From Erythrobacter insulae (lineage in GTDB: Bacteria > Pseudomonadota > Alphaproteobacteria > Sphingomonadales > Sphingomonadaceae), in NCBI RefSeq assembly GCF_007004095.1, contig NZ_VHJK01000001.1, positions 2,174,501 to 2,238,500 on the forward strand: DNA of 64,000 nt, written 5' to 3'. Below the pieces are notes generated by a model that saw nothing but the letters and a program-made list of their open reading frames with translations, was not told the DNA's origin and ran no database searches. Position 1 is the first letter of the stretch; the number at the start of each line of letters is the position of its first letter. Below, one piece after another: positions 6,093 to 64,000 of this stretch. A program made the position numbers and the translations under genes.

Positions 6093-7547
6093 ATGCAAAT
6101 CCAATTCATCGATAAACATCCATCCGGTGTGCGCCTTTCCGCTCGGATCGTGAACCACAAGGGCACGCTGTCCGATCTTGATGCTGCAATCGTTGATGGA
6201 GCCAAGGCTTCGCGCTTTGCAGGCCGGACCGGTCAGGTGTTTGAAGGGTTCACCATGGTCGATGGCAATGTGCGCCGGATCGCGCTTGCCGGGGCCGGCG
6301 ACACTGACGGTAAAACGCGCCGTTTGAACGTTGAAAAAGCGGGCGCTGCGCTGATCGCGAAATATCTGCGGTCAGGCGAAACGGATATGGTCGTTGACCT
6401 TGGTCATGCCGATCTTTCGAGCGACGAGGCTGCTGCCGCGCTGCTGGCAATGCGCCTGCGGGCTTGGCATTATGATCAATACCGCACGACACTTGCCAAG
6501 GAAAAACAGGCAACGCTGACCAGTGTGCATGTTGTAAACGCGCCCGAAGGAACCGAGGACGCGTGGCAGGAACAATCCGCCATCGCCAAGGGTGTGGAGT
6601 TTACCAAACGCCTGATCACGGAACCCGCGAACGTTTTGTATCCAGAAAGTTTCGTTGAGCGCTGCCGCGAGGCGTTTGCGGGGACCGGTGCAGAGATCAC
6701 CGTGCTCGACGAAGATGACATGGAAAAGCTCGGCATGGGCGCATTGCTGGGCGTGGGTCAGGGTTCGGTGCGCGAATCCCGTATGCTGGCGATCCGCTGG
6801 AATGGCGGAGGCGATGAAAAGCCGACCGTGCTGGTGGGTAAAGGCGTTACCTTCGACACTGGCGGCATTTCGTTGAAACCGCCTCCCGGCATGGAAGACA
6901 TGAAATGGGATATGGGCGGCGCTGGCGCGGTTGCCGGCGGGATGTTGTCGATCGTCTCGCGCAAGGCGAAGGCCAATGTCGTCGCTGTCATGGGCCTTGT
7001 AGAAAACATGCCCGATGGCAATGCGCAGCGGCCCGGCGATGTTGTGACCACCATGAGCGGGCAGACAGTCGAAGTGCTCAACACCGATGCCGAGGGGCGT
7101 CTGGTGCTTTGCGATGCGCTGCATTGGGCTCAGGAAGAATACAAGCCCGCGCGGATCATTGATCTTGCGACTTTGACCGGCGCGATGATCATCGCACTGG
7201 GGCATGAGCATGGCGGCTTGTTTTCGAACGATGATACTCTGGCAGAGCAGCTTAGCGAAGCGGGCTTTGCCACCGGTGATAAGCTGTGGCGTCTGCCAAT
7301 CGGCCCGGCCTATGACAAACTGATCGACAGCCCGATCGCGGACATCAAGAATGTTGGCCCGCGTCCGGCCGGTTCGATCACCGCCGCGCAGTTCCTGCAT
7401 CGCTTCATCAAAAAAGGTACGCCTTGGGCGCACCTCGACATTGCGGGCATGGTATTCTCCGACAAGCCGGGTCACACTTGGGATAAGGGCGCGACCGGAT
7501 ACGGCGCACGCTTGCTCGACCGGCTGATCAAAGACGTAGCGGAGTAA
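6093..7547 (+). CDS. pepA: leucyl aminopeptidase (M17 family)
   Basis: Cytosolic two-metal aminopeptidase that removes N-terminal residues during peptide turnover. The 484-residue protein contains the M17 signature NTDAEGRL at residues 330-337 and the metal-binding segment [14 protein letters not shown]. The first ~150 residues form the less conserved N-terminal domain. The ATG at 6093 is preceded by GGGAG at a good distance. It begins a rightward run with the DUF2256 gene, holC and a lipoprotein gene. In many proteobacteria pepA likewise sits next to lptD-type genes and holC. Some PepA homologues also bind DNA (XerC/D accessory role); nothing here shows whether this one does. Confidence 0.95.
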
Positions 7548-48705: not shown

Positions 48706-48926
48706 TAAAAGCTCAGGCTGAAAAAGCGATTCGCCAAATGTGCATTGAGTGGGCGAAAGAGATGGGTCTTGATCGAAAAGACTACTCCACAGCGAGCTTT
48801 GTTGAGTTTTGGCAATGGGCCCAGTCAAATTACTCATCCTATTTCAAATTCCGCACTTCGACAGGCGTCAGGTATGACGTTGAAAAGTGGTTTGAAGATG
48901 AAATGGGGCAGAAGGGTTTTGAATGA
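48702..48926 (+). CDS. small hypothetical protein
   Basis: A 74-residue protein rich in Trp, Tyr and Phe ([20 protein letters not shown]), with no signal peptide. It starts at a GTG that overlaps the cobT stop (GTGA) behind GGGG, and ends 2 nt before the nitroreductase ATG, so it is flush within a run of co-directional genes. Base composition is AT-richer than its neighbours. No family is recognised. Confidence 0.55.
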
Positions 48927-48927
48927 A

Positions 48928-49590
48928 ATGAACGTAACCGAAGCCGTCAAATCCCGCCGCTCTGTCCGCATGTTCACCGATCAGCCGGTTGAGCTGGAAA
49001 AAATCCGCCGCGTTATGGACACTGCGCGCTGGGCGCCTTCGGGCTGCAATTACCAGCCGTGGGAGGCCGCCATACTCACCGGCCAGCCGCTCAAAGACCT
49101 TCAGGCCAAGATCACCACCACGCCGCCGCAGGCCGCCGAATATGACTGGACCGCGCCCGGCCAAGAGGACGAATATAAACAGCGCCTCAATGCCGTGTCG
49201 AAAGGCATGTTTGGTTCGATGAATATCGCCCGCGATGATGGCGAGGGGCGGATGAAGGCAATGATGCGCAACGCCACCAGCTTTGATGCGCCGGTTGTCA
49301 TGCTCACATACTTTCCGCGCCTGATGAAAGAGGCGCAGTGGTCTGACACCGGCATGTGGCTGCAAACGGTGGCGTTGCTGCTGCGCGAGGAAGGGCTGGA
49401 TAGCTGTTTTCAGGAATATATGGCGCTTTATGCCAATGTGATCCGCGATCATCTTGGCCTCGACCATGAACGCTATATGCTGTTTTGCGGCATGGCGATT
49501 GGATACCGCGACGCGCAAGCACCGCTCAACAATTATGATCGAGAACGGGTCGCGCTAGATGAACAAGTGAAATTCATCGGCTGGGAATAA
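48928..49590 (+). CDS. nitroreductase family protein
   Basis: FMN-dependent oxidoreductase of 220 residues. It has the characteristic VKSRRSVRMFTDQPV start (FMN phosphate contacts) and ARWAPSGCNYQPW. The C-terminal GMAIGYRD stretch is typical of nitroreductases (PnbA/NfsB-like). It lacks the features of BluB, so the nearness to cobT is probably fortuitous. ATG 48928 lies just past the preceding stop. No terminator was seen in 49591-49792, a 202-nt gap before the CHAT gene. Confidence 0.88.
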   Translation: MNVTEAVKSRRSVRMFTDQPVELEKIRRVMDTARWAPSGCNYQPWEAAILTGQPLKDLQAKITTTPPQAAEYDWTAPGQEDEYKQRLNAVSKGMFGSMNIARDDGEGRMKAMMRNATSFDAPVVMLTYFPRLMKEAQWSDTGMWLQTVALLLREEGLDSCFQEYMALYANVIRDHLGLDHERYMLFCGMAIGYRDAQAPLNNYDRERVALDEQVKFIGWE

Positions 49591-49792
49591 CGGGCGGTAA
49601 ACGCCGAAAATCGCAAGCAAATGGCATATATCGCCGATCATTTTGCCCAAAGTGATCAATCATGCGGTTTTTTACAATCCACGACTCGACTCGGCCCGTA
49701 TGAAGGCCTTTAAGAACAGGAAGCATTAGGCGTCGCACTCTGATGCGCTGGCGGACGGTCGCGGCGCTGTAGTCCTTGGGGGGGACTTATCT

Positions 49793-52700
49793 GTGAGACG
49801 AATTGCGTTCGGAATTATCACTACGCTCGGTGCATCTGCAATTGTGGGGGCGGCGCTTTCGGCACAAACGTCATCCGTTCTAACCCGCGACAGTTTCCCG
49901 ATTGGCGATGGCAGCGGTATTTTGTGCCAGGTGCAGGATCGCAGCGTCGAAAACCCCGCCAAAGGCAGCATCTTCGATCGCCGCTGGGCGGTGGTTTGCA
50001 GAGACAACCCGCAGCCGATTGCCGAAGTTTTCGCGTTCAAGAATTACACGCCGGCGGCCGCGGCCAAGCTGGGTGATATGCGCCGGTTCCCGGTAACGTG
50101 TCCCGATGCTTTGACCGGTGACGTAGCCGGAATTGCCGGATCGCGCAAAAGCACCTGTGCGGTGGATGATACGGGGCTTGGATGGAGTTCTATCACCGTC
50201 AATGCAGCTGGAATGACCTATGTCGCAGAAGGTTTTTCCGCGTTTGACGACGCGACGATCCTGGCGCTTAAATCGGTGCTTGATAACCGCATCGCCCAAG
50301 GCACGATTGACGCTGCATCCACATCGGTTTCCGATCCGCTATCCTTTGCGCGGGTACAGGCAGAATCGCTTAAACCCGAACAGGCTTTGGCCGAGGGCTA
50401 TCGCCGCAATCTGGGCGGCGAATATGCTGAGGCAGCGGCCTATTTCGAGACGCTTCAACAGCGGCTTGAGGATAGCGGCGAATCCGATATCAATCCGGGC
50501 GAATTCTTCGTCAATCGCGCGCTGCAAAAAAGCAATCTGGGCGAATTCAGTGTTGCGACGCGCCTGTTCGAGCAAGCAAGCGACCTGACCGCCGATGATC
50601 CGATTGCCGGGCGCCTTCAGCGCAATTTCGAAGCAATCCATCTGCTTAATCAGGGACTTGTCTCTCAAGCGGTCGATCGTTTGGGTCAGCAGGTAGAGGG
50701 CCGGGCGCTGGGCGCCGCCGAGGAAAACGGCAAGCTCGCGATCACCCTGCCTTTGTCGGAGAGCATCAATCAATCCCAAGCCGGCAGTTCGCTGCTTGGC
50801 ATTGTTGATGAGCTGAAATTGACCGATCCAGAGCGGGCGCAGATCATTGATGCGCAGGCGCTGCAAATTCGCGGGACAGCGCTTAGGATAAATGGTGATT
50901 ACGAAGGCGCGACGCGGGATCTGGTTGCCGCCTTCAGGCAGGCGGTCGAAGTGCGCGATGGCCGGGTGACATCGATCACGAGATTGCGTTCACAAGTGCT
51001 GGCCGATCTTGCCCTGATCGCGGAACGTGAAGGGCGCGAAGGCGATGCCGAAACCTATCTTCGCAACAGTTTGTCTCTGGTCGAGGCCCAATATCCCGAG
51101 CGGCGCGCAGTCAGCGCCGTTGAGGCGCGCCTCGCAGCGTTTCTGCTGCGCCAAAGCCGCGACGATGAAGCGATGGACCTGTATCGTAAAGTGATTGATC
51201 GGGCAGTTGGAAAGCGCAACGCGGTGACCGGTTTTGCGAACCAGCTAAACCCGTATTACCGGGCGCTTGCGCCGCGCGTTTCAAACGACCCGGACGCCGC
51301 CGAAGCGTTCTTTAAGGCCGCGCAGGTGCTGGTGCGGCCCGGCGTTGCCGAAACGCAAGCGATCCTTGCCCGTGAACTCAGCGCAAATTCCGATGAGGCC
51401 GCCCGCCTGTTTCGGCAATCGATTGATCTTGGCCGCGATATCGAGCGTTTGCGGATGCGGTTTCAAACGCTGATCAAGGGCGCGCAATCGGAATTGGTAC
51501 AGCAACAATTGAATGAACTTTCGGTCCAGATCGAAAATCTGGAACGCGCGCAATTGAACACGCAGGTGCAGCTTAACGATTATCCGCAATACCGCGTGGT
51601 TGCGCCGCCATCGTTGGAATTGGCGGATTTCCGCGCTGCTCTTAAACCGGGAGAGGCCTATGCGCGGCTCGCGATGGTCGGCGGCGATATTTTCATGTTC
51701 TATGCCGATCGCGGCACGGCCAAGGCGTACCAGGTCGATCTGTCAATTGAGGACATGGAATATCAGGTCGATCTGATCCGGGCTTCGATTTCCAGCTTTG
51801 AAGGGGGGCAATATGTGACCTACCCCTTTGAAGTGCGCGAGGCGCGCAATTTGTACAAATCGCTGTTCGCTCCGATCGCGGGTGACCTTGCCAATGTCGA
51901 TCATCTGATTTTTGAACCGGATGGAGCGCTGCTGCGTTTGCCGGTCGATATCCTTGTATCCGATGATGTGTCGGTCGAATTGTACGAAACCAGAAGCGAT
52001 GATCCAGACGCCGATCCGTTCGATTTTACCGGGGTCAACTGGATGGCGAAAAACATGAATGTCAGCACGGCCGTATCGGCGCAGGCGTTTGTGGATTCCC
52101 GCAAAGTCGAACGGTCAAATGCGGCGCGTCAATATCTGGGCATGGGGCAAAACGTCCCGGTTGGAGATGCACTCCCGCGTCAGGCAGCGAGCCAGCGCGG
52201 ATCAAGCGGTTTGCCCGATGGCCTTGATTGCGGATGGGGCAGCGCGCTGTGGAACAGTCCGATTGACGATACCGAACTGGTGATCGCATCAAACCTGATC
52301 GGACAATCGCAATCCCAGCTGATTACGGGCGCCAGCTTCACTGACGATCAGATCATTGCCAAGGAAGACCTTGACGAATTTCGCGTGCTGCATTTTGCGA
52401 CGCACGGTCTGGTGACGCCGCCCAATCCGAACTGCCCGGCAAAGCCCGCTTTGTTGACGTCGTTCGGCAGCGGGGATTCCGATGGCCTGCTGTCTTTCGA
52501 AGAGATTTTCGACCTCAATCTGAACGCCGATATCGTGATCCTTTCCGCCTGTGACACGGCAGGAGAGGCTAGCATCGAGGCTACCCGTGCGGCGGGCATT
52601 GCAAGCGGCGGCGGCACCGCGCTGGATGGTTTGGTGCGCGCTTTCATCGGGGCTGGCGGCCGGGCCGTGCTGGCCAGCCATTGGCCTGCGCCTGATGATT

Positions 52701-52933
52701 ATGATGCGACCGAACGCCTGATGGCGGAAATGTTCAGGCGCGGTAAGACTGAAAATATCGGGGATGCGCTGCGGCAATCGCAGACGATCCTGATGAACGA
52801 AGCCGATACATCGCACCCCTATTATTGGGCGGGATTTGCCGTGATTGGCGATGCGGCTCGACCGCTGCTTTCCGATGATGCGTCCTTCGCCGAAAGCGGC
52901 GCGGCGCCATTTCAACCGGTGATCGGACAATGA
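49793..52933 (+). CDS. exported TPR-CHAT caspase-like protease
   Basis: A 1046-residue protein. Residues 1-~25 are a signal peptide (FGIITTLGASAIVGAALSA). An N-terminal region with Cys pairs follows. Residues ~195-600 are helical TPR-like repeats, ending in a coiled stretch (LVQQQLNELSVQIENLE). Residues ~615-1030 are a CHAT domain with the caspase-like dyad: H871 in HFATHG and C920 in LSACDTA. FIGAGGRAVLASHW and the C-terminal HPYYWAGFAVIG are typical. CHAT proteases of the TPR class cut after basic or acidic residues in bacterial signalling and defence; here the signal peptide points to the periplasm. GTG 49793 follows a G-rich ribosome site. TpsB and TpsA genes follow directly. Confidence 0.9.
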   Translation: MRRIAFGIITTLGASAIVGAALSAQTSSVLTRDSFPIGDGSGILCQVQDRSVENPAKGSIFDRRWAVVCRDNPQPIAEVFAFKNYTPAAAAKLGDMRRFPVTCPDALTGDVAGIAGSRKSTCAVDDTGLGWSSITVNAAGMTYVAEGFSAFDDATILALKSVLDNRIAQGTIDAASTSVSDPLSFARVQAESLKPEQALAEGYRRNLGGEYAEAAAYFETLQQRLEDSGESDINPGEFFVNRALQKSNLGEFSVATRLFEQASDLTADDPIAGRLQRNFEAIHLLNQGLVSQAVDRLGQQVEGRALGAAEENGKLAITLPLSESINQSQAGSSLLGIVDELKLTDPERAQIIDAQALQIRGTALRINGDYEGATRDLVAAFRQAVEVRDGRVTSITRLRSQVLADLALIAEREGREGDAETYLRNSLSLVEAQYPERRAVSAVEARLAAFLLRQSRDDEAMDLYRKVIDRAVGKRNAVTGFANQLNPYYRALAPRVSNDPDAAEAFFKAAQVLVRPGVAETQAILARELSANSDEAARLFRQSIDLGRDIERLRMRFQTLIKGAQSELVQQQLNELSVQIENLERAQLNTQVQLNDYPQYRVVAPPSLELADFRAALKPGEAYARLAMVGGDIFMFYADRGTAKAYQVDLSIEDMEYQVDLIRASISSFEGGQYVTYPFEVREARNLYKSLFAPIAGDLANVDHLIFEPDGALLRLPVDILVSDDVSVELYETRSDDPDADPFDFTGVNWMAKNMNVSTAVSAQAFVDSRKVERSNAARQYLGMGQNVPVGDALPRQAASQRGSSGLPDGLDCGWGSALWNSPIDDTELVIASNLIGQSQSQLITGASFTDDQIIAKEDLDEFRVLHFATHGLVTPPNPNCPAKPALLTSFGSGDSDGLLSFEEIFDLNLNADIVILSACDTAGEASIEATRAAGIASGGGTALDGLVRAFIGAGGRAVLASHWPAPDDYDATERLMAEMFRRGKTENIGDALRQSQTILMNEADTSHPYYWAGFAVIGDAARPLLSDDASFAESGAAPFQPVIGQ

Positions 52934-52974
52934 TTGCGGTGATGAAAGCAGGTGCCCGCCAACAGGATCCAAAA

Positions 52975-54723
52975 ATGAAATCAATTTTGCGTTCGTCCCT
53001 TTCCGTGCTTGCTTCAATTTGGGCCTTGTCCTCGGTTGCGGCGCAGGCCCAGACCCGCGAGGAAATTCAACGTGACCTGCTTGACCCTAGTCTTCAGGCG
53101 CAAGGTCAATCTGTCGCCGTAGACAGTGAAGTGACCCGTCCTGCCTGCCCGCTGGCCGGTGAAGAGTTTGCAGATCTCAAATTCACTTTCACTGGCGCCA
53201 ATTTCACCGGTTTGGAAGCGATTGGCAGCGATTTTGTCGCGCCCGCATATCTTGATCTGATCGGTAATGAGCTGTCGGTGGCGGCGATCTGCGATATCCG
53301 CGATCAGGCATCGGATATCCTGCGCGATGCCGGTTATCTGGCGGTTGTGCGAGTGCCGGTTCAGGAAATTGACGATGGGCGCGTGGATTTCAATATCGTT
53401 CTGGCCCGAATGACCGGGGTGCAAATCCGCGGTGATGCGGGCAATTCGGCCAAGGCGCTGCAGCAATATGTGAACAAGCTGACCGAGCAACCCGTTTTCA
53501 ACGTCAATCAGGCCGAACGGTATTTGCTTCTTGCACGCGATATTCCCGGTCTCGATGTGCGTCTGTTGATGCAGCCTGCTCCGCCAGAAAGCGGAGCGCG
53601 GCCCGGCGATGTGATCGGTATCTTCAACGTGATCCGTGATCCGGTGCAATTTGATGCAACGGTGCAAAATTTCGGTTCGCAATCGGTCGGGCGGGTCGGA
53701 GCATTTGGAAGAGTGCGGTTCAACGGTCTTACCGGGCTTGCCGATCAGACCACGATCAGTCTGTATTCGACCGCCGATATTCAAGAACAAAATGTGGTCC
53801 AGATCGGCCATGACATGAAGCTTGGCGGGGACGGTTTTACGCTGGGCGGCAATCTGACTTTTGCGTGGTCCCAGCCGGATATCGTCGGCGATGATTTGTT
53901 CGAGTCCGAGACATTTATCGGTACAATCTATGCGGCTTATCCATTTAAACGCACGCAGACTTCGAACATTTATGGCCGGATCGGGTTCGAGCTGATCGAT
54001 CAAGAAGTCGAGTTTAGCGGGCTTGCTTTGACCGAGGATCAATTGCGGATCGGATTTGCCCGGATCGAGTTCAACTCGATCGATGCGGCAAGCCTCGGCG
54101 GGGCTGGGGGCTATTCCTCGATCGAACCCAAGTTCGGGCTCGCCGGCGCGGTTGAAATGCGACAGGGCCTCGGCGTGCTCGGGGCAAGCGAAGCGTGCGG
54201 CGTTGGTTTCGTCAATTGCATCGCGCCAAACGTGGTTCCGCCATCGCGGCTGGATGGTGACCCCACGGGATTTGTCGTCAGAGGCGAAGCGCAGATCGAT
54301 TACCGGCCTTCGCCCGAATTCCTGATCCGGATGCGGCCCCGGTTCCAATATTCACCCGACGCGCTGCTCGGTTATGAACAAGTGTCCGGCGGCAATTACA
54401 CCTCCGGTCGCGGCTTTGATCCGGGCGCAGTCATTGGCGACAGCGGTTTTGGGGGTCAAATTGAATTGGCCTATGGATCGCTGGTCCCTCAGGTACCCGG
54501 CGGCAGGGCGTTTCAGCCATACGTCTTCTTTGATTTGATGTCGGTCAGCATAAACAATCTGCCGGGCCAGCAGGACATATCCTCGCTTGGCGGCGGACTG
54601 CGCGCATCGCTCGGGCGGTCCATCTATCTGGATGTTTTTGGTGCAGTTCCGCTGGAACGCGCGCCTTTTCAGGTTGAGCGCGGAGACTTCCGTTTGCTCG
54701 CCACTCTTTCGGTGCAGCTTTGA
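52975..54723 (+). CDS. two-partner secretion transporter TpsB (ShlB/FhaC/HecB family)
   Basis: Outer-membrane Omp85-superfamily transporter predicted to export the adjacent TpsA. The 582-residue product has a signal peptide (LSVLASIWALSSVAAQA). Two POTRA-like domains lie within ~50-210 (for example ILRDAGYLAVVRVPVQEI). A 16-stranded barrel follows. The family motif appears as SGRGFDPGAVIGDSG, corresponding to the conserved VRGY/GRGF loop tip. The last strand ends in LLATLSVQL. I chose ATG 52975 because it begins the signal peptide; ATG 52930 overlaps the CHAT stop (ATGA) and would add 15 residues. It is coupled to the CHAT gene. Confidence 0.92.
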   Translation: MKSILRSSLSVLASIWALSSVAAQAQTREEIQRDLLDPSLQAQGQSVAVDSEVTRPACPLAGEEFADLKFTFTGANFTGLEAIGSDFVAPAYLDLIGNELSVAAICDIRDQASDILRDAGYLAVVRVPVQEIDDGRVDFNIVLARMTGVQIRGDAGNSAKALQQYVNKLTEQPVFNVNQAERYLLLARDIPGLDVRLLMQPAPPESGARPGDVIGIFNVIRDPVQFDATVQNFGSQSVGRVGAFGRVRFNGLTGLADQTTISLYSTADIQEQNVVQIGHDMKLGGDGFTLGGNLTFAWSQPDIVGDDLFESETFIGTIYAAYPFKRTQTSNIYGRIGFELIDQEVEFSGLALTEDQLRIGFARIEFNSIDAASLGGAGGYSSIEPKFGLAGAVEMRQGLGVLGASEACGVGFVNCIAPNVVPPSRLDGDPTGFVVRGEAQIDYRPSPEFLIRMRPRFQYSPDALLGYEQVSGGNYTSGRGFDPGAVIGDSGFGGQIELAYGSLVPQVPGGRAFQPYVFFDLMSVSINNLPGQQDISSLGGGLRASLGRSIYLDVFGAVPLERAPFQVERGDFRLLATLSVQL

Positions 54724-54802
54724 TCGCCCTCGCTGCGATCAGCCACACCAGAATTCACCGCGAAGAGCGGACAGCGTCAGTGCATGACGTTTGGGGAACA
54801 AA

Positions 54803-57800
54803 ATGATGAACGCGAAGAACAGCGCCGCACAGAATGTCCGTAAGGTTACGGAAGGAACCCATGCGACCCGGCGAAAACGCTGGCTCGGTTCCGGTTCGAT
54901 CCTCGCCGCAGCAATTGCGATGACAGCGACGCTTTCCGATCCGGCAGCGGCGCAATCCGGCCCCGTGATGTCATCACGCGTCACCATGGATCAACCCATG
55001 GCGCGCAGCGCGCCTGCGACTGTGCAACAATTGAATGCGCTCGCCAATCGGCCAAATGCGGGCCAGCCTCCTGTGCAGACGCGCACATTGCCGACCCCGA
55101 TCGCGACCGAGCGGATGATGATAGAACGGGGCGTAACGCTAAGCGCGCCGGCGCTGCCTCAAGCTGAGAGTGCACCGCCTTCGCAGCCTGCAGAGCTGAA
55201 CATCCAGCCGACAGGTATCGCTTCTGCTTCAGGGCCGGTTACAGCTGCATCGAGCACGCCGGCAACGCTGCCGGGTGACACAAACACGACCGGCATCAAC
55301 GTTCTTGCCGAAGCCAATTACTTCGCCGGCGAGGTTGATTTCATCCCCGGCGCGGCGGTGGATATCGTTAACATCTTCGTCAACGAGGCGATCATCAATT
55401 GGACGACCAATGCGGCTGGATCGGTAGGCAACACGGTCGATTTTCTTCCGGCAGGCGGCAACCTGCTGTTTACGAGCGATTTGAGCAATTACACCGTCCT
55501 GAACCGGATTTTCACGCCCGGTCTTGACAGCGCGATACGCATCGACGGCAATATCACCAGCAATGCATTGTCGGGATCACGGGGCGGTAACATCTGGTTT
55601 TACAGCCCGGGCGGGATCATCGTCGGTTCGACTGCGACATTTGATATCGGCAGTCTGATCCTGACCAGCAGCGAGCTCAGCGCGATAACTGGAATTGTCG
55701 ATTTTGCCGGCGTCGCAGAGCCAAATACGGCGGTAATCATCGAGGGCGGTGCGTCGATAGATGCGCTCAATGATGTGCTTATTCTTGCACCGCGCATCGA
55801 ACAAGGCGGGACCGTTCGAGCAGGCGACAAGATTGGTTATGTGGGCGCAGAAGAAGCGCGTGTAACCTTTGCCGAAGGCTTGTTCGAAGTCCTGGTGACA
55901 GTCGGGACGTCGGATGAAAACGGGATCGTTCACACCGGATCGAGCGGCGGGCCGACTCTGGTTGACGATCAAAACCGCGGAATAAGCTTTTTCGTTCAGG
56001 GGCAGGATGCCGCCGTGAACATGCTGGTTGGCGGAAACATCGGGTATGACGATGCCTCTGTCGCCACTGCCAGCAATGGCGTGATCTTTCTGGAAGCGGG
56101 CGACGGGTCGGTCGCGAATTCGGGCAACATCACTCTGGGTGCGGGTAATTATAACTCGGACCTGTTTGTAGGTGCCACAGGTGCAATTTCGATTGCCGCT
56201 GATGGGCAGGGCTCGGACATCAATTTCGGGTCCATTGATCAGAACGTCAATGTCAGCGCCTTTGCCGAACAACAGATCTCAATTGCCGCCACGTCCGGCG
56301 CGAACATAGCGGCCAACGGCAATTTCAGCGCGACAGCGGGCGACGGACCGAATGGCGGCATAATCAACCTGACGGTTGACGATGCGGGCCGCGATGATGC
56401 GGTCAGCATAAGCGGCCTTATTGTCGAGGGGGACTTGCGGCTGAGGGTCGATGCCAACGGTATCAATGATACTGCTCCGACCGGAGTGGGCGGCGATGCG
56501 GTGGGCGGGACGATCAATATCAATGTCTCTCAAGGCGGCGAATTGATCTCTGGCGCCGAATTGGAACTCTTTGCAGGCGCGCAGGCTGGCTATGGAGGTT
56601 TCCAGGCAGGGTCTGCCACCGCCGGGACGATCAATCTCACACTCGATGGCCAGAACAGCAGCATCGAAGCGGCAACTTTCATCTCGCTTACTGCGACGGC
56701 GGATGCCGCAGAGGACCCGTTCGGCAGTTTTTCACCTGTACCGCCGCAAATCGGCAGCGATTCCCTGGGTGGTACGGCCAACTTAAATCTTAATGGCGGC
56801 CTGATTTCCGCGCCGTCCTTGGGGATTGTTGTCGATGCTGTCGCCACAGCGGGTTCGCAGGGCGCTGCTACTCCGCCAAACGATGCAACGGGCGGCACAG
56901 TTACAATCAACAATGCGGCCAATTTGGACCTTCAATTCCTTGGTGTTTCGACCGACGCCGCTGGCGCAGCTGGTGGCAGGGGCAATTTCTTTGAAGACGG
57001 GTCTGTTGGCGGGACCGGTACCGGCGGCACGATCATCCTCAACAGCACCGTCGATATTCCCAATGTGATCGATCTCTTCCTTACCGCTCGCGGTACAGGC
57101 GGCGATGGCGGCGAAGGCGGCTTTAGCGGCGCTGGCGGCGCAGGCGGCGCCGGGCAGGGCGGCGATATCACCTTCACAATCGGCGGCGCGGGCGCGCTGC
57201 TTGGTAATGCTGCGGATGTGTTTATCGATACCGGCGCGGCGGGCGGTGCTGGCGGTGTTGGCGGCACAGAAGCATCCTTGACCGATAGCGGCGATGGCGG
57301 CGCGGGCGGGACGGCAACTGGCGGTACGTCTGCTTTCATCATCGCCGGTACGGGTGCGACCTTCACCTACAATTCCGACGAGTTTGCCTTGCGTTCAGAT
57401 GCAATTGGCGGCGCGGGCGGTGCTGGTGCATTCAATTTCAGCGGTTTAAGCGCGGGCACTGGCGGCGCAGGTGGCGACGGGACCGGCGGCACCGTTTCGG
57501 TCGAAGCGCAAACCGGCGCGACGCTCGATCTGACCGGGTTCAGCGGGTTTTTCAGCCTGTTTGCCTCGGGTAACGGAGGAACCGGCGGCGTCGGCGGCGG
57601 CATCGATATGGGCAGCGGCGGGATCGCCGGAAATGGCGGAGCTGGCGGGTCGGGTGTCGGCGGTTCGCCTTTATTGATCGCGGCGGGCGGAACGATTTCC
57701 AGCCCCGATCTGATAAACCTTTCAGCAGGCGGCAGCGGCGGTACCGGAGGCATCGGCGGCGATGACGGTCTGACGGTAATTGGCGCGCAGGGGAATGGCG

Positions 57801-60800
57801 GCTCTGGCGTTGGCGGCACTCCTTCGATCCTGACCTTCGATGGCAGTCCCGGCATAATCTCTCTTGGCGATGTGTCGATTGATGCGAGCGCATTTGGCGG
57901 TGCCGGAACCGTGACGGGCACGACCACTGGCGGTCAGATTTCGATTATCGACGGTTCGGCTGATCCGGCGGGCCTGATTACGATGGCGTCGCTTTTCGTG
58001 ACAACAAGCGGCGTAGCTGCGCCTGCGAGCGGACCGTCACTTATCATCGAAAGCGACAGCGGCCCCATCACCGTTACCGGCAATGTTTCAGCGGACGTCA
58101 CCGGCGATATCGCGTTTAATTTTGATGGCGATGGACAATTTGTAGTCGGCAACAACGCCGATCTTATCGCTGGCGGCGATATCACGGCGGCGCATCTGAA
58201 CAACGCATCCGGCGTCATCTCGATCAGCGTGGGCAATGACTTTACCGCAAGCGCCGGGGGCGATTTCGCTGCTGGCGACGCGACGATCATCGATGCAACG
58301 CGCGAAGTGTCGATCACTGCGCAAAATATTGCATTTGATCGGATCGTGGCCGGAAATGACAATATTTTCGACGCTGGCGAATTCGCGCTGACGCTCAATG
58401 CGACGAATGGAAGCATTACCAGCGGATCAATCGGATCGCTTACCTCGCTCTCCGGCGTTGATCTGGATGCGACGCAGGCCATTAATGTTGGCGATATTCT
58501 GGTCAATGATGGCCAGATCCTGATCGATGCTGGCACAACTTTGAATGCTGGCACCGTCCGGGTGACCCAGGGCGGCGGTGTCAGCGTTGAATCGGTTGTG
58601 ATCAATTCAGGCGGTGACATGGTGCTGGGCGATACGCGCGCTCAGGATAATTTGACCATCACCAGCGGCGGCTCTTTGACGACCGGCTCGCTCACGGGGG
58701 TGGGGGTTGTCGCCACCGCGACAGGCGCGGTTGATGTTGGCGATGTTTCCAACTTTAGCGGTGTCGCCAACGGGCAGAATATCGTTATCAGCGGTGCCTC
58801 GATCGCCATCGACAGCGCGGTAGCGAACACATCGGCGGGCAATGCGGTTACGCTAACCGCGACATCGGGTGACATTACGATTGGCACCGTTGATGCCAAT
58901 GGCTCTTTGACCGTTGATGCGCCGGGCAATGTGAACTTTGGTGATCTGGCCGCTTTGGGCGTATTCATCACCTCTGGTGCGAATGTAACCGGCACATTTG
59001 CGAGCAGTGATCGTGCGATCAATTCCGGCAGCCCGCGCGATGTCCAAATCACGGCGACCGGCGATGTCTCTGTATCGTCATTCAGCACGGTGAATGATGT
59101 CGAGATCACAGCAGCATCTTTTGCGACTGACGCGATCACGACCGGCTTTAACATCAATGGCGTTGCAAGCGACGTGATCATTGATGTGGCCGGCCTTACC
59201 GACATTGGGCAGGCGGACATTCAGGGTGATCTGATCGTGACCGCGGCAGAGATTTTGCTCGGGACCATCGGGGTCGCTGGGACGACTGATCTTGTCAGCA
59301 CTGTCGGCGATATCGGGATTACGGACCTAACCACCGATCAGGATATCCTGATCAGTTCTGCAGCAGCGGCCAATATCGGTTCGCTGGCAAAGCGGGGCAC
59401 GGATACTATTGGTAACGAGACATTCAATGTGTCCGCAGTGACCGATATTGTGGTTTCCGGATCGATTGATGGTCACGATAACATTGTGCTCAATGCAGGT
59501 GGGTTGATCGATGCAGCGCAGCTGATCGCGTTTGACAATGTGACTGCGACAGCCGGAACGTCCATCGATATTGCGGCTATTACCACCACCGATACAGGTG
59601 ATGTGAGCCTGACTGGTCCAACCATTTCGCTGGGTAACAGCACGATTGACGGAACGCTGACAGCCAATGCGGCTGGGGGTAATCTGACGATTGGCGATGT
59701 CACCACAACCGGTGCGATTGATCTGGATGCAACCGGGATTGTGAGCTTTGGCGTGATCACCACCGGTGGCAGCATCAACGCCAATGGTGGGTCTGGAATC
59801 CTCGGTGGGTCCGCCCTTAAGACCGGCACAGATTCCCTCGGCAATGAAAGCATGACCTTCATTTCCGGCGGTGACATCACGTTAAGCGGGACAATTGATA
59901 CGCACGATAACATCGTGATCGATGCGGGCGGGACGGTCGATGCAAACCTGCTTCAGGCGTTTGACAACATCACCGTCACGACAACCGGGCTGATCGATAT
60001 CGCCGATATGGTCACCACCAATACGGGCAATGTAATCCTGACCGGTGGCAGCGTAATCGTGACAGATGCGACCGTGAATGGCAGCTTTGCAGCGACCAGC
60101 ACAATCGGTGCCATCGCATTCAACGGCACAGTCAGCCCGGATAACGGCCTTTCGGCCAATTCAGCGACCGACATCACATTTGCCACTCTCGATATCACGA
60201 ACGGGCTGCTTGAATTGATCGCGGCTGGTGACATTTCCGGTGTAAATGCGATCAACAGCGCTCCGGCAGGCAGCGGCGGATCGGACAGCACCGTCCTGAC
60301 AGCGGGCGGCAACATCACCCTTACCGGTATCGCGCAATCAGTCGATGACAGTGTCACTCTTAACGCAGGCGGCAATCTGACTGTTGCAGCGATTGACGCA
60401 GCTGACACGCTGAGCGCGATTGCGACCGGCGCTGTGCAGGTCGGCACTGCGACGACTGCCAATAGCGGGTCCGTATCGACTTTCCGGGGCACATCGGTGG
60501 CGTTGGATAATGGCCAATTGGCTGGCTTCCTCGTTCTGGATGCGACCGCTGGCAACGTCGATAGCATCGGTGTGATCAGTTCGGGCAATCAGACGAGTGT
60601 TGATGCAACGGGTGTCGTGAGCCTGAATTCGCTGACCGCCAACGGTTTGACCAATATTACCGCTGGCAGCGGGGTTGATTCCGGCGATATTTCTGTGACG
60701 TCCGGCTCTCTTACGATCACGGCCACAGGCGGCAACACCGTGGTAAACGACGTATCGTCTGCGGGTAACCTGAACCTCAACATCACAGGTAATCTGACCA

Positions 60801-63800
60801 CCGGCGCGCTTTCGTCAAACTCGGTCAGTCCGGGTCTTTCTGTGACGGTATCGGGCGATGCCGATATCGGATCGGCGACTTCGAATGTATCCAGCCTTGC
60901 ATTGCTCGATATTAATGTCGGCGGCGCGCTGAGCGGCGGGGACTTTACCGGCGGCGGTGTGACCACTCTTGATGCGACCAGCATCAATGTCGGCGCGGTA
61001 GAATCTGTGAACGCGCAGATCACTCTCACTTCAAGCGTTGGCGAAATTACGACCGGCGATCTTACGTCGGGACTGACGACAGCGGTTAATTCGGCGACAA
61101 CTGCCACCCTTGGCAATGTTTTGGCGGGCGCCAGTTTCTCGCTGACGACACCGGGCGATGCGCAGATGGGTGATCTTGATGCTAACGCCAGCGCCAATTT
61201 CGACATTGGCGGCAATCTGATTGCTGGCAATCTGATCGCACGCGCGACCAGCCCCGGTTTTGACATGACGGTTGGAGGCAATGCGACGGTCGGATCGATC
61301 GTTTCCAATGGCCTGCTGCTGGTTGATGTGGCGGGCGACCTTATCGGCACGGATTTCACCGGTGCGGCTCTTACCGATATCAGCGGCGCGAGCGTAACGT
61401 TGAATTCGCTGACCAATGGCAACATTACCAGCATTGCCTCGACGATCGGAAACGTAACGATCGAAGCGCTCGACATTAGCAGCAATCTGACCATCACTGC
61501 GGCCGCTATCTCGGATATCGGCGATGTCATCACGACCGGTTCTGCGACCATCGGCGGCGCGTCTGTGATCCTCGATACCGGTGATGTGACCAACACGCTT
61601 ACGCTGAACGCCGCAAGCGGGGACATCGCTGGTACCGGAGCGATTGCTGTTGGCGGCCTGATTGATTTGGACGCAGCCGGCAATATCGGTTTTGGATCGC
61701 TCGATGCGGGTGCAGCATTCACAGCCAATGCTGGCGGTGACATTGCTTTCAATTCGGCATCGGCAGTTTCAACCCTGACTTTTGTTGCGGGCGCAGATAT
61801 CATTTTTTCCGCGCTTTCGGGTGATAACACGGTGAGCCTGGACGCAGCGGGCGCGATTGTTGGCGGTGATGTCACCACCGATCAGCTTACCTCCAGTTCA
61901 AGCTTTACAGCGGGCACATCGGTTACCCTGGGCGATGTCACCACGCGCATCCTTACCGTGAACGCAGGGACCGATATCACCCTGGGCGCGGTTGACGCGC
62001 TGGGCCGGGACATTCGCGGGATTGCGATTGACCTGACGGCGGCCGGGAATGTCGATTTTGCATCGCTTACCTCTGGTCGCGGCATCGACATCGGCAGCGC
62101 CACGATCTCGGGCGGAGATATTGTGTCTGACAATGGTGTTACCATTGCGGCAGAAGTTCTTGATCTGGGGAATGTCTCGGTAACCGAACTCGGGCCGGTC
62201 ACAATTGAATCGACAGCGGGCGATTTGAGTATCGGCAATGTTGAAAGCAACACGTTTGGGATCTCGCTCACATCGGCTGCGGCGCTCACTGCGGGTGATC
62301 TGACGGTAAATGGCACGGCCAATTCATCGGATATCACGGTGACATCGCTGGGCAATGCCACCATCGGAGATGCAACGGCGGGCAATCAATTGTCGCTCGA
62401 TGTTACGGGCAATCTTGTTGCTGGAAACCTTGTTTCAAACGTGATCAGCCCCGGCACTGTTGTGACCGTAGGCGGCGACGCGGCGATTGCATCTTTCGAT
62501 GCGCTTTTGGGTCCAGCGACGTTCACGATTGGCGGCGCGCTAAGCGGCGGAACCCTCGCGTCTGATGGCGTGCTCACGCTGAATGCGGCTTCGATAGATG
62601 TCGCTGGAGCAATTTCGCGTACGCAATCTGTCATCGCCGCAGCGACCACAGGCGATGCAACAATCGGCAACGCGCAGGCGAATTTCGACATCTCCGTAAC
62701 GGCAAATAACGGCACACCGACGCTTGGTTCGTTTACAGCGGGAGATGACATTTCCCTGACCGGATCGTCGGTCACGCTTGGCGCTGGAAACATTGTTGGT
62801 AATCTGACCCTCACGTCTTTGAATGCCGATGTCACACTGCTGCTGGACGGCGCAGAAAGCATTACGGTGGGCGGGCAAACGATTTTGGATGCGGCAGGCG
62901 ACATTGTCGTCACGCATACCAACAATGCAGCTGGCACTCTCTCGCTTGATGTGATCGGCAATATCAACGCCTTGGCCAATGGATCGATTGATGCATCCGC
63001 AGGGTCGATCCTGTCCGGTTTCGAAGTGTTCCTGCTGGCATCTGGTTCAATCGGCGTCGATGATGTGCGGGCGATCCCCGGCATCATAATCGAAGGCGGC
63101 GGCAGCGTTACAGTGAACAACGCATCGGCAACCGGCCCGCAGGGCGTCTCCAACATTCGCGGTATTTCGATAAGCGCCGGACGGGATCCGTTTGCGGCTT
63201 CGGTCTTGAGCTTCGATAATTTCGCCGATGCGACAATTACGGGGACGGTCGATTCCTATGGTGACGTGGCCGTGCGTGCAGGCGGAGCGGCGATTTTTGC
63301 GACCGGATCGGCGACCCGCGCGAATGACCGGATCTTTGTCGAGACCGGCGATGATATCATCGTGGAAACAGGCGCCACATTGACAAGCGCGATCAATCCT
63401 TTGTTCGCGCCTGATCCAAGCCTGCCATTCAACGGAGCCGGCGCGATTGAGCTTAATGCAGGCGGTGTGATCGACCTGCTCAGCGTTCCGGCAACACCGA
63501 TTGCGTCGCTGGTGATCGACGGCACACTGAACGCCAATACAGGCGCGGTCATTGCCAGCGCCAATGCGATTGACGGCCTCGATGGCATGATCATGGCAAG
63601 CTCGATCGCGCTTGATATCAACGATGCGCCGGGTGCAGGCGGATTTCAGGACAATGATGCAGGACTGCTCTCGGCAAGCTGTTTGGAAGGCAATATCTGC
63701 CTTGGAAATATCATGGCCGATAACGTCATCGAGATTGGCCAGAACAGCAACAATAACGTGATCCAGCTGATTATTCAGCAAGGGGCAGTGAACGCGAACG

Positions 63801-64000
63801 ATATTCGTATTACCACGCGCAACGATATTGTGATGGGAACCGATGGCATCGCGACCACGTTGAACGCCTCGAATTCGTTTAGAGTGCGCAGCCTGATCGG
63901 CGATATCGATCTGCGCGATGCTGCGATTACCAGTAATGAAATTGCGATCGATGCGGCAGGCAGCCTGCTCGGTTCCGCGATCCTCAGCAGCACCGCAGAT
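54803..64000 (+). CDS. giant filamentous-haemagglutinin-like TpsA exoprotein (partial, open at window end)
   Basis: The frame runs 3066 codons with no stop to the last base, so the true protein is larger. Residues ~1-50 form an extended signal peptide with a basic start (ATRRKRWLGSGSILAAAIAMTA) and an AAAQSG cleavage region. Residues ~165-300 are a TPS secretion domain, with LLFTSDLSN...VLNRI, RIDGNITSN, and YSPGGIIVG at 267-275 where NPNG(I/L) is usual. A long beta-helix follows, made of GD(I/V)..., TTTG and VTLTA-like strands, with a Gly-rich island (~760-1040). CLEGNIC near 63690 is a Cys pair. It lies 79 nt downstream of tpsB, its presumed transporter. The role is probably adhesion or contact-dependent activity; no toxin end is visible. 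Confidence 0.9.
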   Translation, partial: MMNAKNSAAQNVRKVTEGTHATRRKRWLGSGSILAAAIAMTATLSDPAAAQSGPVMSSRVTMDQPMARSAPATVQQLNALANRPNAGQPPVQTRTLPTPIATERMMIERGVTLSAPALPQAESAPPSQPAELNIQPTGIASASGPVTAASSTPATLPGDTNTTGINVLAEANYFAGEVDFIPGAAVDIVNIFVNEAIINWTTNAAGSVGNTVDFLPAGGNLLFTSDLSNYTVLNRIFTPGLDSAIRIDGNITSNALSGSRGGNIWFYSPGGIIVGSTATFDIGSLILTSSELSAITGIVDFAGVAEPNTAVIIEGGASIDALNDVLILAPRIEQGGTVRAGDKIGYVGAEEARVTFAEGLFEVLVTVGTSDENGIVHTGSSGGPTLVDDQNRGISFFVQGQDAAVNMLVGGNIGYDDASVATASNGVIFLEAGDGSVANSGNITLGAGNYNSDLFVGATGAISIAADGQGSDINFGSIDQNVNVSAFAEQQISIAATSGANIAANGNFSATAGDGPNGGIINLTVDDAGRDDAVSISGLIVEGDLRLRVDANGINDTAPTGVGGDAVGGTININVSQGGELISGAELELFAGAQAGYGGFQAGSATAGTINLTLDGQNSSIEAATFISLTATADAAEDPFGSFSPVPPQIGSDSLGGTANLNLNGGLISAPSLGIVVDAVATAGSQGAATPPNDATGGTVTINNAANLDLQFLGVSTDAAGAAGGRGNFFEDGSVGGTGTGGTIILNSTVDIPNVIDLFLTARGTGGDGGEGGFSGAGGAGGAGQGGDITFTIGGAGALLGNAADVFIDTGAAGGAGGVGGTEASLTDSGDGGAGGTATGGTSAFIIAGTGATFTYNSDEFALRSDAIGGAGGAGAFNFSGLSAGTGGAGGDGTGGTVSVEAQTGATLDLTGFSGFFSLFASGNGGTGGVGGGIDMGSGGIAGNGGAGGSGVGGSPLLIAAGGTISSPDLINLSAGGSGGTGGIGGDDGLTVIGAQGNGGSGVGGTPSILTFDGSPGIISLGDVSIDASAFGGAGTVTGTTTGGQISIIDGSADPAGLITMASLFVTTSGVAAPASGPSLIIESDSGPITVTGNVSADVTGDIAFNFDGDGQFVVGNNADLIAGGDITAAHLNNASGVISISVGNDFTASAGGDFAAGDATIIDATREVSITAQNIAFDRIVAGNDNIFDAGEFALTLNATNGSITSGSIGSLTSLSGVDLDATQAINVGDILVNDGQILIDAGTTLNAGTVRVTQGGGVSVESVVINSGGDMVLGDTRAQDNLTITSGGSLTTGSLTGVGVVATATGAVDVGDVSNFSGVANGQNIVISGASIAIDSAVANTSAGNAVTLTATSGDITIGTVDANGSLTVDAPGNVNFGDLAALGVFITSGANVTGTFASSDRAINSGSPRDVQITATGDVSVSSFSTVNDVEITAASFATDAITTGFNINGVASDVIIDVAGLTDIGQADIQGDLIVTAAEILLGTIGVAGTTDLVSTVGDIGITDLTTDQDILISSAAAANIGSLAKRGTDTIGNETFNVSAVTDIVVSGSIDGHDNIVLNAGGLIDAAQLIAFDNVTATAGTSIDIAAITTTDTGDVSLTGPTISLGNSTIDGTLTANAAGGNLTIGDVTTTGAIDLDATGIVSFGVITTGGSINANGGSGILGGSALKTGTDSLGNESMTFISGGDITLSGTIDTHDNIVIDAGGTVDANLLQAFDNITVTTTGLIDIADMVTTNTGNVILTGGSVIVTDATVNGSFAATSTIGAIAFNGTVSPDNGLSANSATDITFATLDITNGLLELIAAGDISGVNAINSAPAGSGGSDSTVLTAGGNITLTGIAQSVDDSVTLNAGGNLTVAAIDAADTLSAIATGAVQVGTATTANSGSVSTFRGTSVALDNGQLAGFLVLDATAGNVDSIGVISSGNQTSVDATGVVSLNSLTANGLTNITAGSGVDSGDISVTSGSLTITATGGNTVVNDVSSAGNLNLNITGNLTTGALSSNSVSPGLSVTVSGDADIGSATSNVSSLALLDINVGGALSGGDFTGGGVTTLDATSINVGAVESVNAQITLTSSVGEITTGDLTSGLTTAVNSATTATLGNVLAGASFSLTTPGDAQMGDLDANASANFDIGGNLIAGNLIARATSPGFDMTVGGNATVGSIVSNGLLLVDVAGDLIGTDFTGAALTDISGASVTLNSLTNGNITSIASTIGNVTIEALDISSNLTITAAAISDIGDVITTGSATIGGASVILDTGDVTNTLTLNAASGDIAGTGAIAVGGLIDLDAAGNIGFGSLDAGAAFTANAGGDIAFNSASAVSTLTFVAGADIIFSALSGDNTVSLDAAGAIVGGDVTTDQLTSSSSFTAGTSVTLGDVTTRILTVNAGTDITLGAVDALGRDIRGIAIDLTAAGNVDFASLTSGRGIDIGSATISGGDIVSDNGVTIAAEVLDLGNVSVTELGPVTIESTAGDLSIGNVESNTFGISLTSAAALTAGDLTVNGTANSSDITVTSLGNATIGDATAGNQLSLDVTGNLVAGNLVSNVISPGTVVTVGGDAAIASFDALLGPATFTIGGALSGGTLASDGVLTLNAASIDVAGAISRTQSVIAAATTGDATIGNAQANFDISVTANNGTPTLGSFTAGDDISLTGSSVTLGAGNIVGNLTLTSLNADVTLLLDGAESITVGGQTILDAAGDIVVTHTNNAAGTLSLDVIGNINALANGSIDASAGSILSGFEVFLLASGSIGVDDVRAIPGIIIEGGGSVTVNNASATGPQGVSNIRGISISAGRDPFAASVLSFDNFADATITGTVDSYGDVAVRAGGAAIFATGSATRANDRIFVETGDDIIVETGATLTSAINPLFAPDPSLPFNGAGAIELNAGGVIDLLSVPATPIASLVIDGTLNANTGAVIASANAIDGLDGMIMASSIALDINDAPGAGGFQDNDAGLLSASCLEGNICLGNIMADNVIEIGQNSNNNVIQLIIQQGAVNANDIRITTRNDIVMGTDGIATTLNASNSFRVRSLIGDIDLRDAAITSNEIAIDAAGSLLGSAILSSTAD
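57098..57830 (+). repeat. Gly-Gly-rich island within the TpsA gene
   Basis: Codons here give repeated GGxGGxGG clusters (for example GGDGGEGGFSGAGGAGGAGQGG) about 40-50 residues apart, each followed by a short hydrophobic strand. The DNA is correspondingly rich in GGC. The spacing suggests long glycine loops projecting from successive beta-helix turns. Confidence 0.75.
59396..60090 (+). repeat. imperfect internal duplication in the TpsA gene, period 429 nt
   Basis: GTDTIGNETF at 59396 recurs as GTDSLGNESM at 59825, and about 80 following residues stay in register (SGSIDGHDNIVLNAGG against SGTIDTHDNIVIDAGG; AFDNVTATAG against AFDNITVTTTG). The distance is exactly 143 codons. Confidence 0.75.

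Follow-up and report, generated by a model that had tools for sequence, protein, structure and literature searches.

The closest described counterpart of the system reported here is CdrA of Pseudomonas aeruginosa, a TpsA exoprotein of two-partner secretion (TPS). The periplasmic cysteine protease LapG releases CdrA by a cut near its C-terminus, a cysteine hook is presumed to keep CdrA in the CdrB pore, and the membrane receptor LapD controls LapG (PMC4694147, PMC11898600, PMC7616799, PMC5422565). We describe a locus of Erythrobacter insulae in which the genes for a TpsB transporter and a giant TpsA are joined by a gene for an exported CHAT-domain protein. It lies in a window of 64,000 nucleotides (contig NZ_VHJK01000001.1, positions 2,174,501 to 2,238,500), which is the whole stretch analysed and to which coordinates refer unless another locus is named. 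Like CdrA, the TpsA has a cysteine pair near its C-terminus, which would form a comparable hook. Unlike LapG, which is transglutaminase-like and encoded with lapD, the candidate protease is a caspase-fold TPR-CHAT protein encoded inside the TPS operon, and the genome of the window has no match to the LapG-type C93 family (PF06035). The membrane sensor gene, where one is present, encodes a CHASE2-cyclase protein rather than LapD, for which no search was made.

In the FHA system of Bordetella, DegP and CtpA are reportedly involved besides SphB1. FHA/FhaC resembles our proposal in that the TpsA is matured by proteolysis and has a C-terminal prodomain, and differs in that SphB1 is encoded outside the fha locus (PMC5422565). 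HMW1A/HMW1B/HMW1C likewise adds a dedicated third gene to a TPS pair; its product is a glycosyltransferase that acts in the cytoplasm and not a protease (PMC3983070). No HMW1C-type glycosyltransferase gene adjoins the tpsA and tpsB of the window, where the third gene is CHAT and the next one encodes cysteinyl-tRNA synthetase (cysS). TPR repeats and a caspase-fold protease are also combined in Csx29 and separase; Csx29 works with a CRISPR effector, separase cuts cohesin, and neither is known to be exported, whereas the protein described here is exported and tied to TPS. DdvA (PDB 8rot), for which we found no paper, differs in being an anti-sigma factor by its title ("transmembrane anti-sigma factor"). 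Cyanobacterial HetF shares CHAT and TPR repeats and is a putative protease, and differs in having one transmembrane segment, a role in cell division and heterocysts and, in the text seen, no TPS link (PMC8406250).

Among the open-licence papers searched, none mentions the CHAT domain together with filamentous hemagglutinin, CHASE2 or two-partner secretion, or "CHAT domain-containing" with "hemolysin secretion", and of those listed on CHAT or caspase proteases, none was about TPS by title. To our knowledge, few exported CHAT proteins have a described role. The loci described below place a protease of the separase/Craspase fold in the TPS operons of many alphaproteobacteria; if the mechanism that we propose is true, exported CHAT proteins gain a testable substrate with a candidate recognition tail on TpsA, and the system is a second, unrelated solution to the controlled release of giant adhesins.

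Linkage of CHAT genes to two-partner secretion genes

In the window, CHAT, tpsB, and tpsA lie in this order on the forward strand. The CHAT gene (49793..52933, 1046 aa, GTG start) ends in a TGA that shares four nucleotides (ATGA) with the start of tpsB (52930..54723, 597 aa), and 79 nucleotides separate the tpsB stop from the tpsA ATG at 54803. The sequence-only reading had described this layout, including the co-directional genes, and it is borne out.

Screening 196 Sphingomonadales genomes returned 103 listed matches to PF12770 (CHAT) in 65 genomes and 121 matches to PF03865 (TpsB) in 79 genomes. Of the 103 CHAT matches, 51 have a TpsB match no more than 20 kb away, always on the same strand; they come from 41 of the 65 genomes with CHAT, and about 1.9 would be expected by chance. 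The CHAT gene is upstream of tpsB in 24 cases and downstream in 27, and an extra CHAT in genome G120, 24.9 kb from TpsB, also appears to be linked via a giant tpsA. In a second sample of 240 genomes drawn from the class, from which the genome of the window was removed, 15 of 81 CHATs outside Sphingomonadales (matches at E ≤1e-20) fall within 20 kb of TpsB, 13 of them on the same strand, and 0.6 would be expected; both expectations assume uniform placement in genomes of 3.2 or 4.0 Mb. CHAT similarity identified 28 named loci, and tpsB follows CHAT in all 26 with a long enough contig; L100 and L108 are cut off. This set overlaps the Sphingomonadales one: judged by length, the contigs of L098 and L120, at least, are those of L047 and L038. 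The linkage is real and strongly non-random, and CHAT-TpsB proximity exceeds chance inside and outside the order.

Gene maps of 50 fetched linked loci and the window revealed several arrangements. The order CHAT-tpsB-tpsA occurs at six loci, the window included; at 15 five-gene loci, genes for a CHASE2-cyclase protein and an exported accessory protein are inserted between CHAT and tpsB; 25 loci, plus G120, have tpsB-tpsA-CHAT; and three (L009, L011, L040) have CHAT-tpsA-tpsB. Four-nucleotide NTGA stop/start overlaps join CHAT to tpsB in the window and in four of five CHAT-tpsB-tpsA loci, and tpsA to CHAT in 17 of 25 cases. A 2513-aa CHAT frame in genome G236 was considered as a TpsA-CHAT fusion and rejected, because the frame is open merely by composition; the tpsA of this locus (L203) ends at 6433 in another frame.

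Phylogenies (FastTree, local support only) separate linked from unlinked genes. In a CHAT-domain tree of 90 sequences, linked CHATs fall into one clade of 50 (support 88; 48 at 100), 48 members of which are linked; of the other two, L091 begins at a contig edge and L088 abuts a 2140-codon frame with a similar type of tail, TpsB being absent from the fetched stretch. Thirty of the 38 unlinked CHATs group in one different clade. The three CHAT-tpsA-tpsB loci form a separate CHAT clade (support 100), which suggests from the tree that CHAT was recruited to TPS more than once. A TpsB tree of 91 sequences (51 linked, and 40 of the 68 unlinked places) contains a clade of 47 (support 100) that includes the TpsB of the window; 46 of its members are CHAT-linked and one, L180, is CHAT-less, while the three CHAT-tpsA-tpsB sequences and L012/L013 lie outside it. 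Relatives with the same tpsB-tpsA pair thus almost always keep CHAT beside it, which favours the sequence-only reading; absence or random placement of CHAT would have spoken against it. The exception L180 also lacks the tail motif described below. CHAT and TpsB distances are correlated (r 0.91 over 40 loci).

A shared C-terminal tail on CHAT-linked TpsA proteins

The TpsB of the window matches PF03865 (E 9.3e-16) and POTRA_2 (PF08479, 53182..53400, E 2.2e-5), each past its cut-off, and, as also placed by the TpsB tree, is an outer-membrane transporter of the ShlB/FhaC type, that is, type Vb. The tpsA gene occupies 54803..64000 (3066 codons from the ATG, forward strand) and extends past the window to a stop at the extrapolated position 68278, giving 4495 aa if counted from an upstream TTG. 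Its TPS secretion domain (55448..56134) is invisible in the 3069-aa piece within the window; an isolated 346-aa piece matches PF05860 past the cut-off (E 2.2e-9), and the structure model of this piece matches the secretion domains of HxuA (4i84, by profile and fold), EtpA, FHA, and HMW1. The TpsA is predicted to be secreted through the neighbouring TpsB.

At its C-terminus, this TpsA has a cysteine pair (NGCLLIDPASC, 97 residues before the end), followed by a linker, the segment PLLDEPVTGAGNEDFW, and an acidic tail; the last 87 residues include 27 acidic and 3 basic ones. Other linked TpsA proteins have the same layout, in which an NxC(x4-9)C pair about 80 to 250 residues from the end precedes a linker, commonly acidic or rich in proline, and then a near-terminal motif. 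This motif can be summarised as PV[TS]GxGNxxLW and variants. In CHAT-first orders it is close to PLhD[DE]PVTGxGN[DE]DLW, in many CHAT-last loci it reads D[DE]PVSG[SA]GNPAL and in others DDPV[AT]SGGDxxLY, and in L055 and L056 it is PLVGxxNEGL. The combination of cysteine pair, linker, and near-terminal motif, read from the sequences, is a new feature shared by CHAT-linked TpsA proteins.

Across 51 linked loci, 45 TpsA proteins are complete by our counting rule; 35 of these carry the strict motif, 41 the strict or loose motif, and 38 the cysteine pattern. Forty of the 68 CHAT-less TpsB places were fetched as controls, and in the 15 with a complete large neighbour neither the strict motif, nor the loose motif, nor the cysteine pattern was found. 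Two points reduce the weight of this contrast: since we derived the motif patterns from the linked tails themselves, the 41 of 45 cannot be taken as independent, and the 15 control neighbours may include proteins other than true TpsA. Fairer evidence is the zero in the controls together with the named loci, where all six complete TpsA proteins have the tail layout (two by the strict pattern, four by eye). A GNxxLW-like core was recognised by eye in three of four distant alphaproteobacterial loci (GSGNEGLW in L204, WGNEALW in L205, and TGKDGLW in L203). L180, CHAT-less and inside the TpsB clade, has a terminal cysteine pair and no tail motif.

The tail also follows the CHAT tree. Hand-labelled tail types change five times on it over 40 loci, where 200 shuffles gave a mean of 20.0 changes, and in five of five genomes compared, paralogous systems differ in both CHAT and tail type. 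The distance correlation, the tail-change count, and the paralogue comparison in part reflect the common descent of the three genes.

Several individual loci deserve mention. In G120, L207 3-16121 is a tpsA frame of 5373 codons or more, and in the stretch that follows, a piece of 2148 codons (L060 11554-18000) has the tail motif at its end; if the two are one gene, it would encode an extremely large exoprotein. In a Qipengyuania metagenome-assembled genome (L101, 9932-13057), the CHAT gene is split in two frames and the TpsA tail motif is retained. The TpsA ends of the CHAT-tpsA-tpsB clade resemble cyanobacterial ones (..GLPP..) by eye.

The CHAT protein and its candidate roles

The CHAT protein of the window begins with a signal-peptide-like sequence (residues 1-24, 49793..49864), which by our reading is likely cut after ALSA. 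By the same crude hydrophobicity rule, such a start is present in 45 of 52 linked and 27 of 39 unlinked CHATs. A beta-rich N-terminal domain follows (about residues 28-165, 49874..50287), read from the secondary structure of a model in which parts of it have low confidence (pLDDT). Its four cysteines (45, 69, 103, and 122) are invariant in an alignment of 21 sequences, which suggests disulfides formed in the periplasm. The model then shows a TPR-like helical superhelix (about residues 182-600, 50336..51592), a long stretch rich in conserved columns that matches TPR_12 below the cut-off (2.3e-4) and the kinesin light chain TPR by profile. The CHAT domain itself spans residues 682-1020 (51836..52852; PF12770, E 2e-49), and the best structural matches of the modelled protein are the Craspase TPR-CHAT protein (Csx29) and separase. 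The presumed catalytic residues His871 (FATHGL, codon 52403..52405) and Cys920 (ILSACDTA, codon 52550..52552) are intact in the alignment, so the signal peptide and dyad named in the sequence-only reading were both recovered. The dyad is likewise intact in 51 of 52 linked CHATs, the remaining one being masked at that place. By eye, the cysteine site is mostly CDTA in linked CHATs and CNTA in many unlinked ones. NCBIfam returned no family for any of the three window proteins, and PADLOC none for the CHAT protein; no cas search was made.

We lean towards a mechanism in which a periplasmic caspase-fold protease is dedicated to its cognate TpsA, whose tail it recognises and cuts. The CHAT protein, a predicted cysteine protease of the separase/Csx29 type, would be exported by its signal peptide and fold in the periplasm. 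TpsA would thread N-terminus first through TpsB until a disulfide hook near its C-terminus holds it there, leaving a short periplasmic tail. The TPR part of the CHAT protein would dock on or near the near-terminal motif, and the CHAT domain would cut the tail, whereupon the surface-held TpsA would be released or matured. The CHASE2-cyclase and exported accessory, in the variants that have them, probably provide sensing or gating of this step across the inner membrane. We infer the cut because the system has the formal elements of CdrA/LapG with unrelated parts, namely the exported cysteine protease, the cysteine pair and conserved tail of TpsA and, in 15 linked loci, the membrane CHASE2-cyclase with its accessory, and because the genome of the window has no LapG match. 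Tryptophan-acidic peptides are ligands of some kinesin light chain TPR domains (PDB title 6f9i), and by analogy we would guess that the TPR part reads the GNDDLW end of TpsA.

A number of observations weigh against this mechanism. A conserved dyad is no proof of proteolysis, and unlinked CHATs keep it too (39 of 39). About half of the CHATs in the order (52 of 103, or 51 with G120 among the linked ones) and most of those outside it (66 of 81) have no TpsB nearby. The CHAT-linked L206 has a tail without the motif, as do the complete linked TpsA proteins of L013 and of the CHAT-tpsA-tpsB loci L009, L011, and L040; 7 of 45 linked TpsA proteins lack the cysteine pattern of the presumed hook, and a second cysteine pair after the motif is seen by eye in only 11. 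The tail could be co-inherited and not read by CHAT. CHASE2 proteins, mostly with EAL and in one case also with cyclase output, also adjoin CHAT-less TpsB, so CHASE2 is not specific to CHAT. Finally, L044 and L049 have tpsB-CHAT without an adjacent tpsA. These two loci also qualify the three-partner system proposed in the sequence-only reading, which is largely right: linkage, overlaps, co-evolution, and the partner tail motif support and, in the case of the tail, strengthen it, while the set of three genes is not universal, some systems have five, and the exact action of the protease is putative. A close paralogue of L049 in its own genome, L054, is complete.

Five other roles were weighed. 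The CHAT protein might be a quality-control or stress protease for TpsA stalled in the periplasm, or cut TpsB, the accessory, or the CHASE2 sensor instead of the TpsA tail. The loci without an adjacent tpsA, the co-evolution of CHAT with TpsB, and the 15 loci with CHASE2-cyclase and accessory between CHAT and tpsB would fit such a role, but the tail motif tracks CHAT linkage and 37 of 52 linked loci have no CHASE2-accessory pair in the fetched stretch; we regard it as fairly unlikely. It is unlikely, too, that CHAT is a sorting or anchoring enzyme that cleaves TpsA at the near-terminal motif and attaches it to an anchor on the surface, in the way presumed for the caspase-fold PorU of type IX secretion. 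The cysteine pair already supplies an anchor, and no recurring anchor-making gene was noticed in the gene maps, although none was searched for as such.

A non-proteolytic chaperone or plug, with the TPR part holding TpsA or TpsB, would account for the many conserved columns of the long TPR-like stretch; conservation of His and Cys in 51 of 52 linked and all 21 aligned sequences makes it quite improbable. Still less probable is that the three genes share transcription only and that CHAT acts elsewhere. Half of the CHAT matches do lie away from TpsB, and operon membership alone proves no joint mechanism, but against this stand the two gene orders, the separate CHAT-tpsA-tpsB clade, the linkage outside the order, the cyanobacterial neighbourhoods, and a TpsA tail that is specific to its partner. 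TpsA proteins can carry toxins, yet a contact-dependent inhibition or immunity-type system is by far the least credible role, as no Pfam family matches the last 250 residues of the window TpsA, these systems have a short acidic C-terminal tail in common instead of a variable toxin, and the next gene is cysS and not a small immunity gene; activation on contact and an inhibitory link, both raised in the sequence-only reading, find no support here for the same reasons.

CHASE2 genes, plasmid loci, and neighbouring genes

Both of the inserted CHASE2 proteins tested from the 15 five-gene loci match CHASE2 and a guanylate/adenylate cyclase domain past the Pfam cut-offs. The exported accessory, about 250 aa long, has no Pfam family past the cut-off and has two cysteines that are invariant in 17 sequences; a relationship to DUF928 was rejected by a negative profile comparison. 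Away from its CHAT gene, the genome of the window encodes a CHASE2-cyclase next to an accessory protein, both of the kind seen in CHAT operons (L186 1050-3864, C1 ~1859511-1862325; profile E 6e-276 and 4e-76). This pair carries Pfam CHASE2 and Guanylate_cyc and has no CHAT match nearby; about 5 kb further on is a second TpsB (531 aa) without an adjacent tpsA, and a CHASE2-EAL gene and, by eye, a FecR-like frame lie a few kb beyond the pair. The CHASE2 profile matches 15 of the 40 CHAT-less TpsB loci fetched, L186 included. A CHASE2-cyclase beside CHAT-less TpsB was considered for the matches of about 780 aa and rejected, as the three that were checked (L158, L164, and L186) are CHASE2-EAL proteins and not cyclases. 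This CHASE2-EAL gene is divergent from a TpsB gene of about 550 aa, and there may be a TpsB system linked to cyclic di-GMP through CHASE2-EAL. In the five-gene loci L138 (28187-31102) and L036 (14594-17970), tpsA is followed by genes for a cytochrome c family protein and a heme-binding protein; by eye, comparable sequences lie downstream of the CHAT-less TpsB in L186.

Similar neighbourhoods exist on plasmids. A search of cyanobacterial plasmids only, with a CHAT-tpsA-tpsB-type query protein, yielded 147 records. In the eight loci opened, annotation gives a haemagglutinin-type gene in four, ShlB in two, CHASE2 in six, and DUF928 in six, and the tails of the four haemagglutinin-type proteins are unlike the linked TpsA motif. 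Among four proteobacterial plasmid loci opened, Sphingobium pMSHV has the five-gene form with CHASE2 and ShlB annotated, on a Sphingomonas plasmid CHAT comes after a haemagglutinin-type gene, and the CHAT loci of Pseudosulfitobacter and Agrobacterium vitis have no TPS gene. Only tentatively, these systems might constitute a distinct type Vb class in which a C-terminal address on each TpsA is recognised by its own periplasmic separase-like protease and, with the CHASE2-cyclase and accessory present in many copies, tail cutting informs the cell about the surface fibre, a caspase-fold counterpart of LapG/LapD that would have evolved separately in Alphaproteobacteria and, as neighbourhoods, in Cyanobacteria.

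Around the window locus, the region 49400-54900 showed no excess of rho-independent terminators or sigma-70 promoters over shuffles. The genome of the window has two more CHAT genes (C1:130228-131031 and C1:772555-772944), more than 1 Mb from the closest TpsB match. Directly upstream of the CHAT gene of the window is a nitroreductase-like open reading frame (48745-49590), and by eye a similar one precedes CHAT in L021.

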